From Syntrophorhabdus sp. PtaB.Bin027 (GTDB taxonomy: Bacteria; Desulfobacterota; Syntrophorhabdia; Syntrophorhabdales; Syntrophorhabdaceae), in the NCBI GenBank assembly GCA_002067585.1, contig MVQO01000201.1:1-64000 (forward strand): a stretch of DNA of 64,000 bases. The letters are read 5' to 3'. Shown one piece after another: positions 46,104 to 52,648 of the stretch. Position 1 is the first letter of the stretch. Each line of letters begins with the position of its first letter. The notes below the pieces were generated by a model. The model was not told the origin of the DNA and ran no database searches. It saw only the letters and a program-made list of their open reading frames with translations. The translations under genes and the position numbers were made by a program.

Positions 46104-47858
46104 TTGAGAGATAGATATTGCGGCAAAGTTTCAATAGATGACGTTGGAAAAACACTGACCTTATCGGGCTGGATCTCTGGAAGAAGAGATCTGGGCAGGC
46201 TGATTTTTATCGATTTACGGGATGTGACAGGAATTTTTCAGGTCGTTTTTTCACCTGATATTTCTCCGGAAGCTCATGAGAGGGCGGGTGATTTAAAACA
46301 GGAATACGTAATTCAGGTGAGTGGTAAAGTGCAGAATCGCCCTGATGGGACGGTAAATGCCAGCATGCCTACAGGTGCCCTTGAAATGTATGTCGTTTCT
46401 TTTCAAGTACTGAACACATGTAAGCCATTGCCATTTCAGCTTGATGAAGAGAATGTCAGCGAATTAATGCGACTAAAATACCGGTACCTTGACCTGCGTC
46501 GACCTCTTGTGCAGAAGATTTTTCTTGAGCGTAGCACGGCCTACAAAGTGACCAGAGACTATCTGGCATCCCATGGCTTCTACGAATTTGAGACTCCTTT
46601 CCTGACCAAAAGTACTCCAGAAGGGGCGCGTGATTTTATTGTTCCCAGTAGGCTGAATGCAGGGACTTTTTATGCGCTGCCTCAATCCCCCCAGCTCTTT
46701 AAGCAGATACTTATGGTGAGTGGTTTCGATCGTTATTTTCAGATTGTGCGATGCTTCAGGGATGAGGACCTGCGGGCAGACAGACAGCCAGAGTTTACGC
46801 AGGTCGATATGGAAATGAGTTTTGTTGAAGTTGATGATGTCATAGGCATGTGTGAAGGCCTTGTGGCTTCAATATATGAAGCAATACGGGGAGAACCACT
46901 CCCATTGCCCATCCCGAGAATGACATATGAAGAAGCAATGGAAGTTTATGGAAGCGACAAACCGGATCTTCGTTTTGAACTACCCATGACAGATCTGTCA
47001 GATATTTTTCGCGAGACTGAGTTTGGTGTCTTCAGGAAGACTATAGATGATGGCGGTGCCATCAAGAGTATTGTATTAAAAGGGAAGACACTTTCAAGAA
47101 AGGACCTCGAAACAGCTGTGGGGATAACCAAAGAGATGGGTGCTGGTGGACTCATCTGGATACGGAAAGAAAAAGAAGGATTACAGTCAACAATCGTAAA
47201 ATACCTAAAAGACTATGAAAAGTCTGAGATGAGTGAGAGGTTGCACCTTTCAGATGGAGATGTTGCATTCATTATGGCTGATGCTAAAAGCAAAGTAAAT
47301 GACGTTATGGGAAGGTTTAGACTCTACCTGGGAGACAAATTTGAACCCATGGCAAAAGACCAGTTCAAATTCCTGTGGATTGTTGATTTTCCGCTTTTTG
47401 AGTACAGCAATGAAGATAAACGGTTTGTAGCACGGCACCATCCATTCACCTCCCCCCAGGGTAGCATTAAAGATTTTAACGGTGACTACGAATCATTTAA
47501 GGCAAAAGCCTACGACCTTGTTTTAAACGGTGTTGAAATAGGTGGCGGCAGTATTAGGAACCACCGTATGGATGATCAACTGCAGATGTTTAAGCTTCTC
47601 AATATCAGTCAAGATGATGCAATTGAAAAATTTGGATTCCTTCTCGAAGCCCTTGAAATGGGTGCTCCCCCACATGGTGGCCTGGCCTTTGGTTTTGACA
47701 GGATTCTTATGATGTTGCTTGGCCTGGAGAGTATACGTGATGTTATACCTTTTCCAAAAACACAGAAGGGCACCTGTCTTTTAACCGGGGCACCATCGAA
47801 AATACCACAAAAACAGTTGAATGAATTGAGGATTCGTCTTACAGGGGAACAGCAATAA
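46104..47858 (+). CDS. aspS: aspartate--tRNA ligase
   Basis: Class IIb synthetase of 584 residues, the normal bacterial length with the GAD insertion domain. An OB-fold N-terminus (VGKTLTLSGWISGRRDLGRLIFIDLRD) binds the anticodon. Motif 1 is in FYEFETPFLTKSTPEGARDF, motif 2 in FDRYFQIVRCFRDEDLRADRQPEFTQVDMEMSF, and motif 3 in GLAFGFDRILMMLLG. Whether it also charges tRNA-Asn is unclear; asparagine genes are not nearby. TTG 46104 follows AGGAG at 46092-46096. It heads the citrate-branch operon; the next gene starts 74 bases on. Confidence 0.97.
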   Translation: MRDRYCGKVSIDDVGKTLTLSGWISGRRDLGRLIFIDLRDVTGIFQVVFSPDISPEAHERAGDLKQEYVIQVSGKVQNRPDGTVNASMPTGALEMYVVSFQVLNTCKPLPFQLDEENVSELMRLKYRYLDLRRPLVQKIFLERSTAYKVTRDYLASHGFYEFETPFLTKSTPEGARDFIVPSRLNAGTFYALPQSPQLFKQILMVSGFDRYFQIVRCFRDEDLRADRQPEFTQVDMEMSFVEVDDVIGMCEGLVASIYEAIRGEPLPLPIPRMTYEEAMEVYGSDKPDLRFELPMTDLSDIFRETEFGVFRKTIDDGGAIKSIVLKGKTLSRKDLETAVGITKEMGAGGLIWIRKEKEGLQSTIVKYLKDYEKSEMSERLHLSDGDVAFIMADAKSKVNDVMGRFRLYLGDKFEPMAKDQFKFLWIVDFPLFEYSNEDKRFVARHHPFTSPQGSIKDFNGDYESFKAKAYDLVLNGVEIGGGSIRNHRMDDQLQMFKLLNISQDDAIEKFGFLLEALEMGAPPHGGLAFGFDRILMMLLGLESIRDVIPFPKTQKGTCLLTGAPSKIPQKQLNELRIRLTGEQQ

Positions 47859-47932
47859 GGAAATGGAACCGCCAGGCATTAGGATTTTCCATAATCATTG
47901 TGCTGTTCTCACTGCACAAACAGGAGGAAATA

Positions 47933-49741
47933 GTGAGTAAAAAGACAGGTTTTATATTCAAGAACGTGGAAAAGGGGGCCAGGTATTCCCTCATCGATGT
48001 GGAAGAGCCAGAGTTGTATAGAGGGATGTTCCCATACTCTGAAGTCTGTAAGATTAAGTTTGACAATAAGATAGAGTTGATCGACCCTCCTGAAGAAATC
48101 TACATCACGGATACAACATTCAGGGATGGACAGCAGTCGAGGCCGCCCTTCACACCGAAACAGATTGAAGATCTCTTCGAATTTCTTCATAGACTCGGCG
48201 GCCCAAATGGTGTCATAAAACAATCTGAGTTTTTTCTCTATACAGAAAAGGACAGGCAAACCGTTGAAAAATGCCTTGAAAAAGGCTACAGGTACCCTGA
48301 AATCACAGGATGGATACGCGCGAACAAAGATGATTTACAGCTTGTTAAAGAGCTTGGCTTAAAGGAAACGGGCATTCTGACGAGCGTTTCAGACTATCAT
48401 ATTTTTTTGAAACTTAAGAAAACACGTAAACAAGTGTTCAAAGACTATATTCAAAATATTGAAGAAGCTCTCGAACATAACATTGTTCCGAGATGTCATT
48501 TTGAGGATGCAACACGGGCTGATGTGTACGGATTCTGCGTACCCTTTGCTCAAACACTTATGCAACTCTCAGAAGATGCAAAAATACCGGTGAAAATAAG
48601 ACTCTGTGACACACTGGGAATTGGAATTACCTATCCGGGCGCTGCTTTACCAAGGTCTATCGGAAAGCTGATTCGGGCAATGATAGACGATGCTGGGGTT
48701 CCGCCGGAGTACCTTGAATGGCATGGACACAATGATTTTCACAAAGTGGTGATCAACACAGTAAGTGCCTGGCTTTATGGCTGTTCCCATGCCAATGGAA
48801 CACTCCTGGGTATTGGGGAGAGGACAGGGAATGCCCCTATAGAAGGCCTGATTATGGAGTACATATCCCTCATGGGGAACGAAAATGGCATCGATACCAG
48901 AGTAATTACCGAAATCAGAAACTACTTCGAAAAAGAGATAGGCTTTCAGATTCCTCGAAACCAGCCCTTTGTTGGCGTAGATTTTAATGCCACATCAGCA
49001 GGTGTGCACATAGATGGAATCCTGAAAAACGAAGAGATCTACACCCCCTTTGACACTAGTCGGATCCTTAACAGACCCCTCGCGATAAATATTACTGACA
49101 AATCAGGTCTGGCAGGAATAACACACTGGATAAACTCACATTTTGCACTTATTGGCAAGGAACGGCTTGAGAAAACACATCCTGCTATCGGAAGGATTAA
49201 CAAGTGGATTATAAAACAGTACGACGAGGGTAGGATTACTTGTATATCTGACAACGAGATGGAACACCTTGTGCGAAGATATATACCGGAAATTTTTGTA
49301 TCTGAGTTCGAGCGTCTCAAAAATAAGGCCTACGATATGGCTGCCCACCTGATCACAAGGTACATCGAGGATAGCGCGATCAAGAGCATGAATCCTGATA
49401 AGCAGCAAGAGACCTTAAAAAATATCGTCCGGGAATATCCTTACATTCAGTTCGCCTACTCGGTGAACAGCGAAGGTATTAAGATTACAAAGAATATTAC
49501 GCAAGCGGTCGACAGAGCAAAATACTACAAAATTGGCCTCCATGAGGATTTCTCAGATAGAGATTGGTTTCTCAATCCCATGAAGACTGGTGAAATTAGC
49601 GTGACTGATCTTTATACTTCAAAGATTACAGGGGCGCTCTGTGTTACCGTGTCCGGCCCGATAAGGGATGAATTCGGTGATATTGTTGGAGTGTTGGGTC
49701 TCGATATTAAGTTTGAAGATCTTACTAAGGCTGAGGAATAA
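47933..49741 (+). CDS. Re-citrate synthase-like (2-isopropylmalate synthase family) enzyme with C-terminal Cache domain
   Basis: Protein of 602 residues. The HMGL-like barrel (about 45-330) has the start TDTTFRDGQQSRPPF, HFEDATRADVYGF, the metal-binding HGHNDFHKV, and GIGERTGNAPIEG. Claisen condensation of acetyl-CoA with a 2-oxo acid is the family reaction. Neighbouring aconitase- and NADP-isocitrate-dehydrogenase-type genes suggest oxaloacetate and a Re-face citrate synthase, though homocitrate or citramalate synthase cannot be excluded. Residues about 485-602 match a Cache/PDC sensor: AYSVNSEGIKITKN, DFSDRDWFLNPM, and DEFGDIVGVLGLDIKFEDL. There is no signal peptide or membrane helix. GTG 47933 follows AGGAGG (47922-47927) by five bases. 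Confidence 0.85.
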   Translation: MSKKTGFIFKNVEKGARYSLIDVEEPELYRGMFPYSEVCKIKFDNKIELIDPPEEIYITDTTFRDGQQSRPPFTPKQIEDLFEFLHRLGGPNGVIKQSEFFLYTEKDRQTVEKCLEKGYRYPEITGWIRANKDDLQLVKELGLKETGILTSVSDYHIFLKLKKTRKQVFKDYIQNIEEALEHNIVPRCHFEDATRADVYGFCVPFAQTLMQLSEDAKIPVKIRLCDTLGIGITYPGAALPRSIGKLIRAMIDDAGVPPEYLEWHGHNDFHKVVINTVSAWLYGCSHANGTLLGIGERTGNAPIEGLIMEYISLMGNENGIDTRVITEIRNYFEKEIGFQIPRNQPFVGVDFNATSAGVHIDGILKNEEIYTPFDTSRILNRPLAINITDKSGLAGITHWINSHFALIGKERLEKTHPAIGRINKWIIKQYDEGRITCISDNEMEHLVRRYIPEIFVSEFERLKNKAYDMAAHLITRYIEDSAIKSMNPDKQQETLKNIVREYPYIQFAYSVNSEGIKITKNITQAVDRAKYYKIGLHEDFSDRDWFLNPMKTGEISVTDLYTSKITGALCVTVSGPIRDEFGDIVGVLGLDIKFEDLTKAEE

Positions 49742-49744
49742 TTC

Positions 49745-51040
49745 ATGGGAAAGACTATTGCGGAAAAAATCTTGAGTATGAACACAAAAACAGACCTCAA
49801 GGCAGGGGACTATGCTGTTGTTAAAGTAGACCGCATATTACTCCAAGACGGCACAGCCCCATTGGCAATAAACAGGTTTAAGGAAATGGGTTTCACCCGA
49901 TTGTTCGATGGAGACCGCATCACCTTTTTTATTGACCATGCATCACCAAGTTCGCGAATGGAACTCTCGAATGATCATCAGCAGATTCGGGATTTTGCAA
50001 AGTCAAATAACGCGCGTATATCGGAGGTCGGGGAGGGAATCTGCCACCAGGTTATCGCGGAACATGTACTCTGCCCAGGCGAAGTGCTTGTAGGTGCTGA
50101 TTCACACACGTGCACAGGTGGTGGCCTGGGTGCATTTGCAACAGGAATGGGTTCGACAGACATTGCGGTGGCCATGGGCCTCGGGCAGACATGGTTAAGA
50201 GTCCCAGAAGCAATAAGGTTTAACATTAACGGGAAACTTCGCTCAGGTGTTTTTCCGAAGGACATTATCCTTGCAATTATTGGAATGATGGGTGCGGATG
50301 GAGCAACCTACAAATCAATGGAATTTACTGGAGAGACAGTCAAACATCTCAATATTGAAGACAGACTCACTATATCAAACATGGCTGTTGAGGCAGGAGC
50401 TAAGTGTGGATTATTTTCATCTGATCTTTTGACATTTCTTTATTTGAAGAGATTGAAAAGGGAAGAATCATATATTGAGATCCAGCCCGATGATGATGCC
50501 AACTATGAGAAGGTAGTTGAAATTAATGCTGAACTCCTGACTCCGATGGTCAGTTTCCCGGACCAGGTAGATAACGTAAAAAGCATTGATGATCCTGATG
50601 TTAAAGGTGTTAACATACATCAGGTCTTTATCGGATCGTGTACAAACGGAAGGGTTGATGATCTCCGCATTGCTTCTATTATCTTGAAAGGACGAAAGAT
50701 TCAAAAAGGGATTCGACTCCTTGTAGGCCCAGCGTCGAGGATGGTCTACTATCAGGCTCTTCAGGAAGGCATTATTGCTACTCTTTTCCAGGCAGGAGCA
50801 GTGATTCTTCCACCAGGGTGCGGGCCTTGTATCGGTATTCATCAGGGGGTTCTTGGGGACGGGGAGACCTGCCTTTCAACCTCTAATAGAAATTTTCTCG
50901 GCCGGATGGGAAACCCCAATTCACATATTATACTTGCCTCACCGGCAACAGCAGCTGCAACCGCGCTTAAAGGAAAATTAACAGATCCACGGGAGGTTCT
51001 TGATGATTTTGAAAGGAAAGGTGTGGAAGTTTGGAGATAA
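49745..51040 (+). CDS. aconitase/isopropylmalate isomerase family, large subunit (probable aconitase)
   Basis: Iron-sulfur hydro-lyase large subunit of 431 residues, LeuC-type. Motifs: [42 protein letters not shown], first cluster Cys in FIGSCTNGR, and the CGPC pair in [11 protein letters not shown], giving three ligands for the [4Fe-4S] cluster. With the small subunit next door it isomerises a 2-hydroxy acid. Neighbours make citrate to isocitrate the likely reaction. It starts three bases after the previous stop; its last 38 bases overlap the small subunit. Confidence 0.9.
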
Positions 51041-51500
51041 CATCTCTACTGACCATATCATCCCAGGAAGGTTCTACCACTTGCGCTCAAACCTTGAAGA
51101 ACTAAAAAAACATGTTTTTGAAGATATCTCGCCTGGTTTTTGTAAAAAGGTTAAGAAGGGCGACATTATAGTAGGCGGGAAAAACTTCGGGCTTGGCTCC
51201 AGCAGAGAACATGCACCACTTATTATAAAGATGGCAGGGATTGATGCAATTATCGCAACATCCTTTGCACGAATATTCTATAGGAATGCAATAAATGTGG
51301 GCCTTGCAGCAATAATATGCAATACAGATGGAATTAATGAAGGAGATTCCCTTGAAATAAGAGTCGATGACGGTATGCTGGTAAATAAAACAACAGGCGA
51401 TGAGAAGAGTTTTTCACCCCTGAGTTCGATTATGCGTACAATCCTGAATGAGGGAGGACTTGATCACTATATTGCACGTTATGGAGGGTTTAAGATTTGA
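51003..51500 (+). CDS. aconitase/isopropylmalate isomerase family, small subunit
   Basis: Small (swivel) subunit of 165 residues from ATG 51003, with GGGAGG at 50991-50996 in the preceding gene. Motifs: [15 protein letters not shown], then [18 protein letters not shown] and [19 protein letters not shown]. The substrate loop reads YHLRS; in characterised LeuD/HacB proteins YLRT goes with tricarboxylates and YLVY with isopropylmalate, so the Arg favours aconitase (or homoaconitase) activity. This is inference from that known contrast. Confidence 0.9.
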
Positions 51501-52648
51501 CTGATATTGTTACGATTCCCTATATAGAAGGTGATGGTGCAGGTGATGATATCTGGCATGCTTCAAAAGAGGTCCTTGAAGAATCGGTCCAGAAAGCATA
51601 CGGAGGTAAAAAAAGAATAAAATGGATATCTTTGCTGGCAGGAGAAAAGGCTCTTGCAAAAACAGGTGAACTTCTCCCCGAAGAAACCTTGCAGACTGTT
51701 AAGGCGCACCAGGTGGCAATTAAAGGGCCCCTAACAACACCTGTTGGAGGAGGTTTTAGAAGCGTAAATGTATATCTACGCCAAATATTTGATCTTTATG
51801 TTTGTATGCGTCCCATCAGATTTTTGCCAGGGCTTCCGAGTCCGCTGAAAAAGCCCGAACATGTTAATTTTATTATTTTCAGAGAAAACACAGAAGACCT
51901 TTACAAAGGGATAGAATGGAGGGCTGAGAGTAAAGAGTCATTGATATTCCTTACATTTCTCAGAGAAAAAATGGGGGTTAGCCTAACTGATGATACCGGT
52001 GTAGGCGTCAAACCGATAAGCAGGACAGGTACTGCACGATTTACCAGGTGGGTTCTTGACTACGCCATCAAGAATAACAGGAAGGCAGTGACAGTTGTTC
52101 ATAAGGGCAATATCATGAAATACACAGAAGGCGCCTTTAGAGAATGGGCATATGAGGTAGCAAGGGGCTACGCTGACAAGTTAACTTTTTCTGGTGAAAA
52201 GGATAAAATTCTTTTCAATGACCGAATAGCCGACAATATGTTTTTACAAGTTATTTTAAGGCCCGAAGATTATGATATTCTTCTGTGCCCGAATCTTAAT
52301 GGTGATTATCTGTCTGATGCTTGTGCAGCCCTTATAGGAGGTCTGGGAGTTGCGCCTGGAGCTAACTTTGGTGATAATGTGGCAATTTTTGAGCCGACCC
52401 ATGGGAGTGCTCCAAAATATGCAGGAAAGGACCTTTCAAATCCAACGTCATTCCTTCTATGCGGAGCGATGCTCTTCAGACATATCAACCTTGAAAAGGC
52501 AGCAGATATTCTTGAATATGCAATAGAGGAAACGGTGGGTAACAAGATTGTCACCTATGATCTTGCACGACAAATGGATAATGTTCGTCCTGTTAGATGT
52601 TCGGAATACGGGGAGGTAATAAAAAAAAGAATAGAGCAGAGGGCATAG
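51497..52648 (+). CDS. icd: isocitrate dehydrogenase, NADP+-type
   Basis: Decarboxylating dehydrogenase of 383 residues. The substrate site FRSVNVYLRQ (Ser, Asn, Arg) and DLYVCMRPIR match isocitrate rather than isopropylmalate enzymes, as does FRENTEDLYKGIEW. NADP contacts are kept: HGSAPKYAG and VTYDLAR align with Lys344, Tyr345, Tyr391 and Arg395 of the E. coli enzyme. It makes 2-oxoglutarate from isocitrate, completing a four-gene branch with the upstream enzymes. TTG 51497 overlaps the previous stop; GGAGG at about 51483-51487 precedes it. Confidence 0.93.
   Translation: MTDIVTIPYIEGDGAGDDIWHASKEVLEESVQKAYGGKKRIKWISLLAGEKALAKTGELLPEETLQTVKAHQVAIKGPLTTPVGGGFRSVNVYLRQIFDLYVCMRPIRFLPGLPSPLKKPEHVNFIIFRENTEDLYKGIEWRAESKESLIFLTFLREKMGVSLTDDTGVGVKPISRTGTARFTRWVLDYAIKNNRKAVTVVHKGNIMKYTEGAFREWAYEVARGYADKLTFSGEKDKILFNDRIADNMFLQVILRPEDYDILLCPNLNGDYLSDACAALIGGLGVAPGANFGDNVAIFEPTHGSAPKYAGKDLSNPTSFLLCGAMLFRHINLEKAADILEYAIEETVGNKIVTYDLARQMDNVRPVRCSEYGEVIKKRIEQRA

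Follow-up and report, generated by a model that had tools for sequence, protein, structure and literature searches.

A probable Re-citrate synthase fused to a cytosolic Cache domain in Syntrophorhabdus and its relatives

Introduction

Re-citrate synthases, as in Clostridium kluyveri and Syntrophus aciditrophicus, and their relatives from anaerobic ammonium-oxidizing (anammox) bacteria are built on an HMGL-like catalytic domain and occur in genomes without a Si-citrate synthase. Other synthases of the DRE-TIM type, i.e., LeuA (2-isopropylmalate synthase) and citramalate synthase, carry a C-terminal ligand-binding LeuA regulatory domain, and in Sulfolobus homocitrate synthase a RAM domain is regulatory. 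Here we analyzed a window of 64,000 nucleotides from Syntrophorhabdus sp. PtaB.Bin027 (assembly GCA_002067585.1, contig MVQO01000201.1, positions 1 to 64,000), in which one gene joins the same HMGL-like catalytic domain to a C-terminal domain that is confidently predicted to adopt a Cache fold. With a probability of roughly two in three, we consider this protein the sole citrate synthase detected in this anaerobe, a member of the Re-citrate synthase family whose soluble Cache domain would bind a small carboxylate and tune the synthase allosterically.

A survey from 2016 identified Cache domains exclusively together with signaling output domains, and only two small families, Diacid_rec and YkuI_C, were mainly intracellular (PMC4822843). 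A widely kept cytosolic Cache domain on a citrate synthase departs from this rule. The usual Cache setting is extracellular, between two membrane helices and coupled to signaling output, whereas the protein described here has no such helix and an enzyme as partner. In the literature searched, with subscription papers outside its scope, the pairing of a Cache domain with Re-citrate synthase was not found, and co-mentions of 'citrate synthase' were unrelated by title. A regulated DRE-TIM synthase is a known principle; new would be the Cache domain as its regulatory domain.

Domain layout and Cache fold

The gene and its parts are located as follows.

47922-47927, forward strand: ribosome-binding site AGGAGG, from sequence
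47933-49741, forward strand: fusion gene for an HMGL-like enzyme of Re-citrate synthase type with C-terminal Cache domain (602 amino acids, GTG start, stop included)
48098-48922, forward strand: catalytic TIM barrel, residues 56-330 (Pfam PF00682, alignment, Foldseek)
48923-49297, forward strand: C-terminal extension of the synthase, approximately residues 331-455, where relatives lacking the Cache domain stop
49304-49732, forward strand: single Cache/PDC domain, approximately residues 458-600, with a long N-terminal helix (Pfam, AlphaFold2, Foldseek)

Positions 47933-49741 form a single open frame on the forward strand without internal stops. Because AGGAGG ends five bases 5' of the GTG at 47933, we preferred this start, which the preliminary description of the locus also gives, over a 613-residue reading from 47900. 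In a Pfam search of the protein, PF00682 (HMGL-like) matched residues 56-330 (4.2e-31) and PF22673 (MCP-like_PDC_1) matched residues 515-599 (4.9e-15; 56.4 bits, cut-off 27), the latter being the only PF22673 match in its genome. The LeuA C-terminal regulatory domain PF08502 gave no match in this search. The DTTFRDGQQ and HGHxDF motifs of the TIM barrel are invariant in the family alignment. Neither a membrane helix nor a signal peptide was seen in the protein, with a maximum 19-residue Kyte-Doolittle mean of 1.05, which bears out the preliminary description; the Cache domain should hence be cytosolic, beside the enzyme that uses acetyl-CoA.

The Cache fold proposed earlier was supported by structure prediction. 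AlphaFold2 modeled the full-length protein with a mean predicted local distance difference test score (pLDDT) of 88, residues 458-600 lying mostly at 80-92, and the Cache domain alone, built from 89 family sequences, with a mean pLDDT of 91.5 and a predicted template modeling score of 0.87. In the model, a PAS-like core is preceded by the long helix characteristic of Cache domains (residues 458-478), i.e., the domain starts near residue 458 and the border first placed at about 485 was slightly late. Top Foldseek matches of the isolated domain were Cache domains, namely KinD (including the pyruvate complex 4jgp), Tlp3, YkuI, PctA and DctB; a PDB profile search by sequence returned largely the same set with E-values to 2e-11. 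All 89 family members tested matched both Cache-superfamily models, PF22673 and PF02743 (dCache_1), at E up to 0.01. Pfam, profile search and AlphaFold2/Foldseek thus agree, and an unrelated fold was not seen among them.

Structural comparison gave Sulfolobus homocitrate synthase (6ktq, solved as dRAM) as top match, with LeuA-type synthases among the other Foldseek matches. In the Sulfolobus enzyme, too, a regulatory domain from a separate family is attached to the DRE-TIM synthase; it differs in that this domain is RAM and the pathway that of archaeal homocitrate. The regulatory domain of LeuA and citramalate synthase is of another fold and family, and the fusion carries the Cache domain in its place. 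In Bacillus subtilis YkuI, the YkuI_C domain is also a cytosolic Cache-superfamily domain on a soluble domain (PMC4822843). The partner there is an EAL signaling domain, in contrast to the fusion, and the sequence match to YkuI_C is weak. KinD, solved with pyruvate, and Tlp3 and PctA, solved with amino acids, share fold and pocket positions with the Cache domain of the fusion. These are, however, extracytoplasmic, membrane-bound double Cache proteins signaling to kinases or chemotaxis, whereas the domain described here is single, soluble and attached to a metabolic enzyme, and has a serine at the position of PctA D146.

A conserved putative ligand pocket

The residues that line the predicted pocket fall into three short segments.

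49559-49570, forward strand: pocket motif R543-x-W545-F546, matching PctA R126/W128/Y129 and KinD R131
49613-49621, forward strand: pocket motif Y561-x-S563, at the PctA Y144 and D146 positions; KinD has Y-S-S
49703-49705, forward strand: pocket residue D591, matching PctA D173, invariant (89/89)

R543, W545, F546, Y561, S563 and D591 align with PctA R126, W128, Y129, Y144, D146 and D173, and were conserved in 84, 89, 88, 76, 89 and 89 of 89 sequences, respectively. Their mean entropy was 0.20 compared with 1.62 in the domain core (permutation p about 1e-5), a value that overstates the case for binding because such conservation is partly common to many dCache_1 domains. The pocket residues are kept across phyla despite an overall identity of 30-50%. 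The KinD counterpart of R543 is R131, which is mutated in 4jgq/4jgr; according to the structure titles, KinD was crystallized with pyruvate and as R131A mutant. The full dCache_1AA amino-acid motif, of which we take D146 to be a part, is not present: the R, W, aromatic, Y and D173 positions are kept, the Y121 position varies, and the D146 position is the invariant S563. This serine and the Y-x-S-[KR]-x-T stretch resemble YSSRITG in KinD. In receptors, the ligand's carboxyl group is bound by R126, whereas Y129 has a structural role and D173 makes a key contact (PMC10104139). From these alignments, the pocket appears as a mixture of amino-acid and 2-oxo-acid types, with a small carboxylate as our best guess for the ligand.

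Assignment as a probable citrate synthase

Four neighboring genes were considered together with the fusion gene.

46104-47858, forward strand: aspS, aspartyl-tRNA synthetase, upstream neighbor, named from sequence
49745-51040, forward strand: large subunit of a LeuC/homoaconitase-type dehydratase, which probably serves as aconitase in this branch
51000-51500, forward strand: LeuD-type dehydratase small subunit, start uncertain
51497-52648, forward strand: NADP-dependent isocitrate dehydrogenase, NF005425 above cut-off

A search for Si-citrate synthase (PF00285) gave no match in this genome, which is 93% complete; the control search was positive in 13 of 14 genomes. The two further HMGL-like synthases of the genome score above the curated LeuA and CimA cut-offs. 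A single additional aconitase-superfamily gene is present in the genome and adjoins leuA, so the LeuCD-type dehydratase downstream of the fusion gene can be regarded as a dedicated copy, which most likely isomerizes citrate. We therefore agree with the preliminary description that the enzyme stands at the first step towards 2-oxoglutarate, as a probable citrate synthase heading a gene cluster from citrate to 2-oxoglutarate.

Relatives from Brocadia-type anammox bacteria are 59-60% identical over residues 18-458 and lack the Cache domain, unlike the fusion, whereas relatives from Syntrophales metagenome-assembled genomes (MAGs) carry it. The anammox candidate from Kuenenia shares 55.1% identity with the Re-citrate synthase of C. 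kluyveri (PMC8027424), and the fusion protein was compared with the latter via the anammox relatives. Formate tracing favors citrate synthesis in Kuenenia (PMC8027424). We infer from these relationships that the fusion protein probably makes citrate by the Re route.

Distribution and history of the fusion

Among 297 Desulfobacterota genomes searched (match threshold E up to 1e-60), 145 gave a match, and 139 of these matches extend through the end of the Cache domain. The fusion is thus present at 51-82% identity in about 139 Desulfobacterota genomes; four matches (G016, G034, G212, G294) are bare and stop near residue 455, and a further two (G170, G278) are partial. In a scan of named genomes, the full fusion was found in about nine phyla by record titles, where most genomes are MAGs, single phylum assignments may be wrong and some loci are on the same contig as in the Desulfobacterota survey. 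Fused records came from Desulfobacterota/Deltaproteobacteria, Nitrospirae, Omnitrophota, Spirochaetes, Lentisphaerae, Elusimicrobia, Fibrobacteres, Termititenax and Erginobacter, and also from UBP15. The same enzyme without Cache domain occurs in Brocadia-type Planctomycetes, Firestonebacteria and one Elusimicrobia. None of the seven matches among 99 further Planctomycetota genomes reached the Cache core.

On a tree of the catalytic part, fused and bare forms are separated by only three changes of state. With the Deinococcus outgroup taken at face value, the largest bare group, including the anammox bacteria, nests within the fused ones; this outgroup has a very long branch and, consisting of distant plasmid relatives only, is weak. 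The nesting suggests one old fusion with later losses, a reading that we hold loosely. Cache and catalytic distances were correlated (Mantel r 0.77; 0 of 2000 permutations), as expected if both parts were inherited together, at a median identity of 43% for the Cache domain and 61% for the catalytic part.

A small separate Cache protein that replaces the lost domain in genomes with the bare synthase was considered and rejected: seven of ten such genomes had no PF22673 match, and in each of the remaining three the single match lay in a large frame exceeding 900 amino acids. Catalytic residues that mark the fused proteins were also sought, and only four weak, clade-bound positions were obtained; we therefore propose no interface between the catalytic part and the Cache domain. 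In a Lentisphaeria copy (L142:5935-7617), homology stops near residue 505 and is followed by an unrelated tail of 43 residues, possibly a broken or frameshifted Cache domain.

Proposed function and alternatives

In the mechanism that we infer, including catalytic activity, ligand, allosteric coupling and the sign of this coupling, the synthase would condense acetyl-CoA and oxaloacetate, and the LeuCD-type dehydratase and isocitrate dehydrogenase would convert citrate to 2-oxoglutarate, from which glutamate is made. The Cache domain would be a cytosolic allosteric domain, its ligand most likely a small carboxylate or amino acid, and could bind a carboxylate-bearing metabolite via R543, W545, Y561, S563 and D591. 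By analogy with further synthases of the same fold, which are regulated by ligand binding to a C-terminal domain, a regulatory role is most likely; binding might shift synthase activity allosterically, as leucine does via the C-terminal domain of LeuA. Feedback inhibition by 2-oxoglutarate or glutamate would be the simplest proposal by pathway logic. Alternatively, pyruvate or another 2-oxo acid could act in feed-forward direction, with pyruvate as an activator suggested by analogy to KinD. For the wider statement that a single ancient fusion, which today occurs in about nine phyla, lets a cytosolic Cache domain on an enzyme of central metabolism set carbon entry into the 2-oxoglutarate/glutamate branch in many anaerobes, by sensing a metabolite directly in a receptor-type pocket, we see the odds as slightly better than even.

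Several observations weigh against the proposed function. The bare relatives suggest that catalysis can proceed without the Cache domain and that such control is dispensed with in many organisms. In the pocket, the position of PctA Tyr121 is variable in the family, and the W, F and GxD positions recur in many dCache_1 domains and may have a partly structural role. As to the enzyme, no NCBIfam model names it, and acetate tracing in a Kuenenia culture fitted a Si-type enzyme, for which the authors invoke a possible side population (PMC8027424). Moreover, eight fused genomes outside Desulfobacterota also match Si-citrate synthase (L102, L104, L113, L121, L125, L130, L137, L138); the fusion hence does not always replace the Si-type enzyme, and its role there may differ. 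The main rival, which we regard as unlikely, is that the Cache domain mainly serves oligomerization or stabilization, its pocket being a relic or holding a permanently bound molecule. PAS and Cache domains often act as dimerization domains (PMC8694187), and the domain is both dispensable, as in the bare relatives, and less conserved than the catalytic part. Its best-conserved positions, however, include those that line the receptor ligand site, which speaks against this rival.

Given that dCache_1 domains bind many ligand classes (PMC10104139), the domain might sense neither a small carboxylate nor an amino acid but, e.g., a purine, an amine or a metal, or might tether the enzyme to a partner; with the pocket residues described above, we consider this very improbable. 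It is similarly improbable that the enzyme is a DRE-TIM synthase of a different kind, e.g., a homocitrate synthase, and that the Cache domain controls that pathway. The NifV homocitrate synthase and archaeal LeuA models did give the highest NCBIfam scores, each falling well short of its cut-off, and the downstream dehydratase scores highest with a homoaconitase family. Yet the downstream dehydrogenase passes the curated cut-off for NADP-isocitrate dehydrogenase, Si-citrate synthase was not found in the 93% complete genome, and the family groups with the anammox enzymes, one of which shares 55% identity with the Re-citrate synthase of C. kluyveri (PMC8027424). An assembly or frameshift error that merged two genes is practically negligible: the same junction is shared by about 130 loci, some of them in single-contig genomes (e.g., G269, G101 and Smac51), and the recurrence across Desulfobacterota and other phyla rules out such an artefact. 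The fusion claimed in the preliminary description is therefore genuine.

If the proposed allosteric control by the Cache domain is true, a small molecule would switch the first step towards glutamate by a mechanism so far undescribed, and Re-citrate synthase in sulfate reducers and syntrophs would have a control mechanism. Close relatives with and without the Cache domain provide a ready natural experiment.

Further observations on related loci

Of 103 fused loci, 50 have aspS upstream and in the same orientation, 42 of these at a distance of up to 500 bases or overlapping. We cannot explain this conserved pairing of aspS with the citrate synthase beyond the common link to oxaloacetate/aspartate. 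Two Deinococcus plasmids encode a distant Cache-less relative annotated as 'pyruvate carboxyltransferase' (L164:1706-4284 and L165:708-3310) of 37-38% identity, which in both is divergent from a citrate/2-methylcitrate synthase gene.
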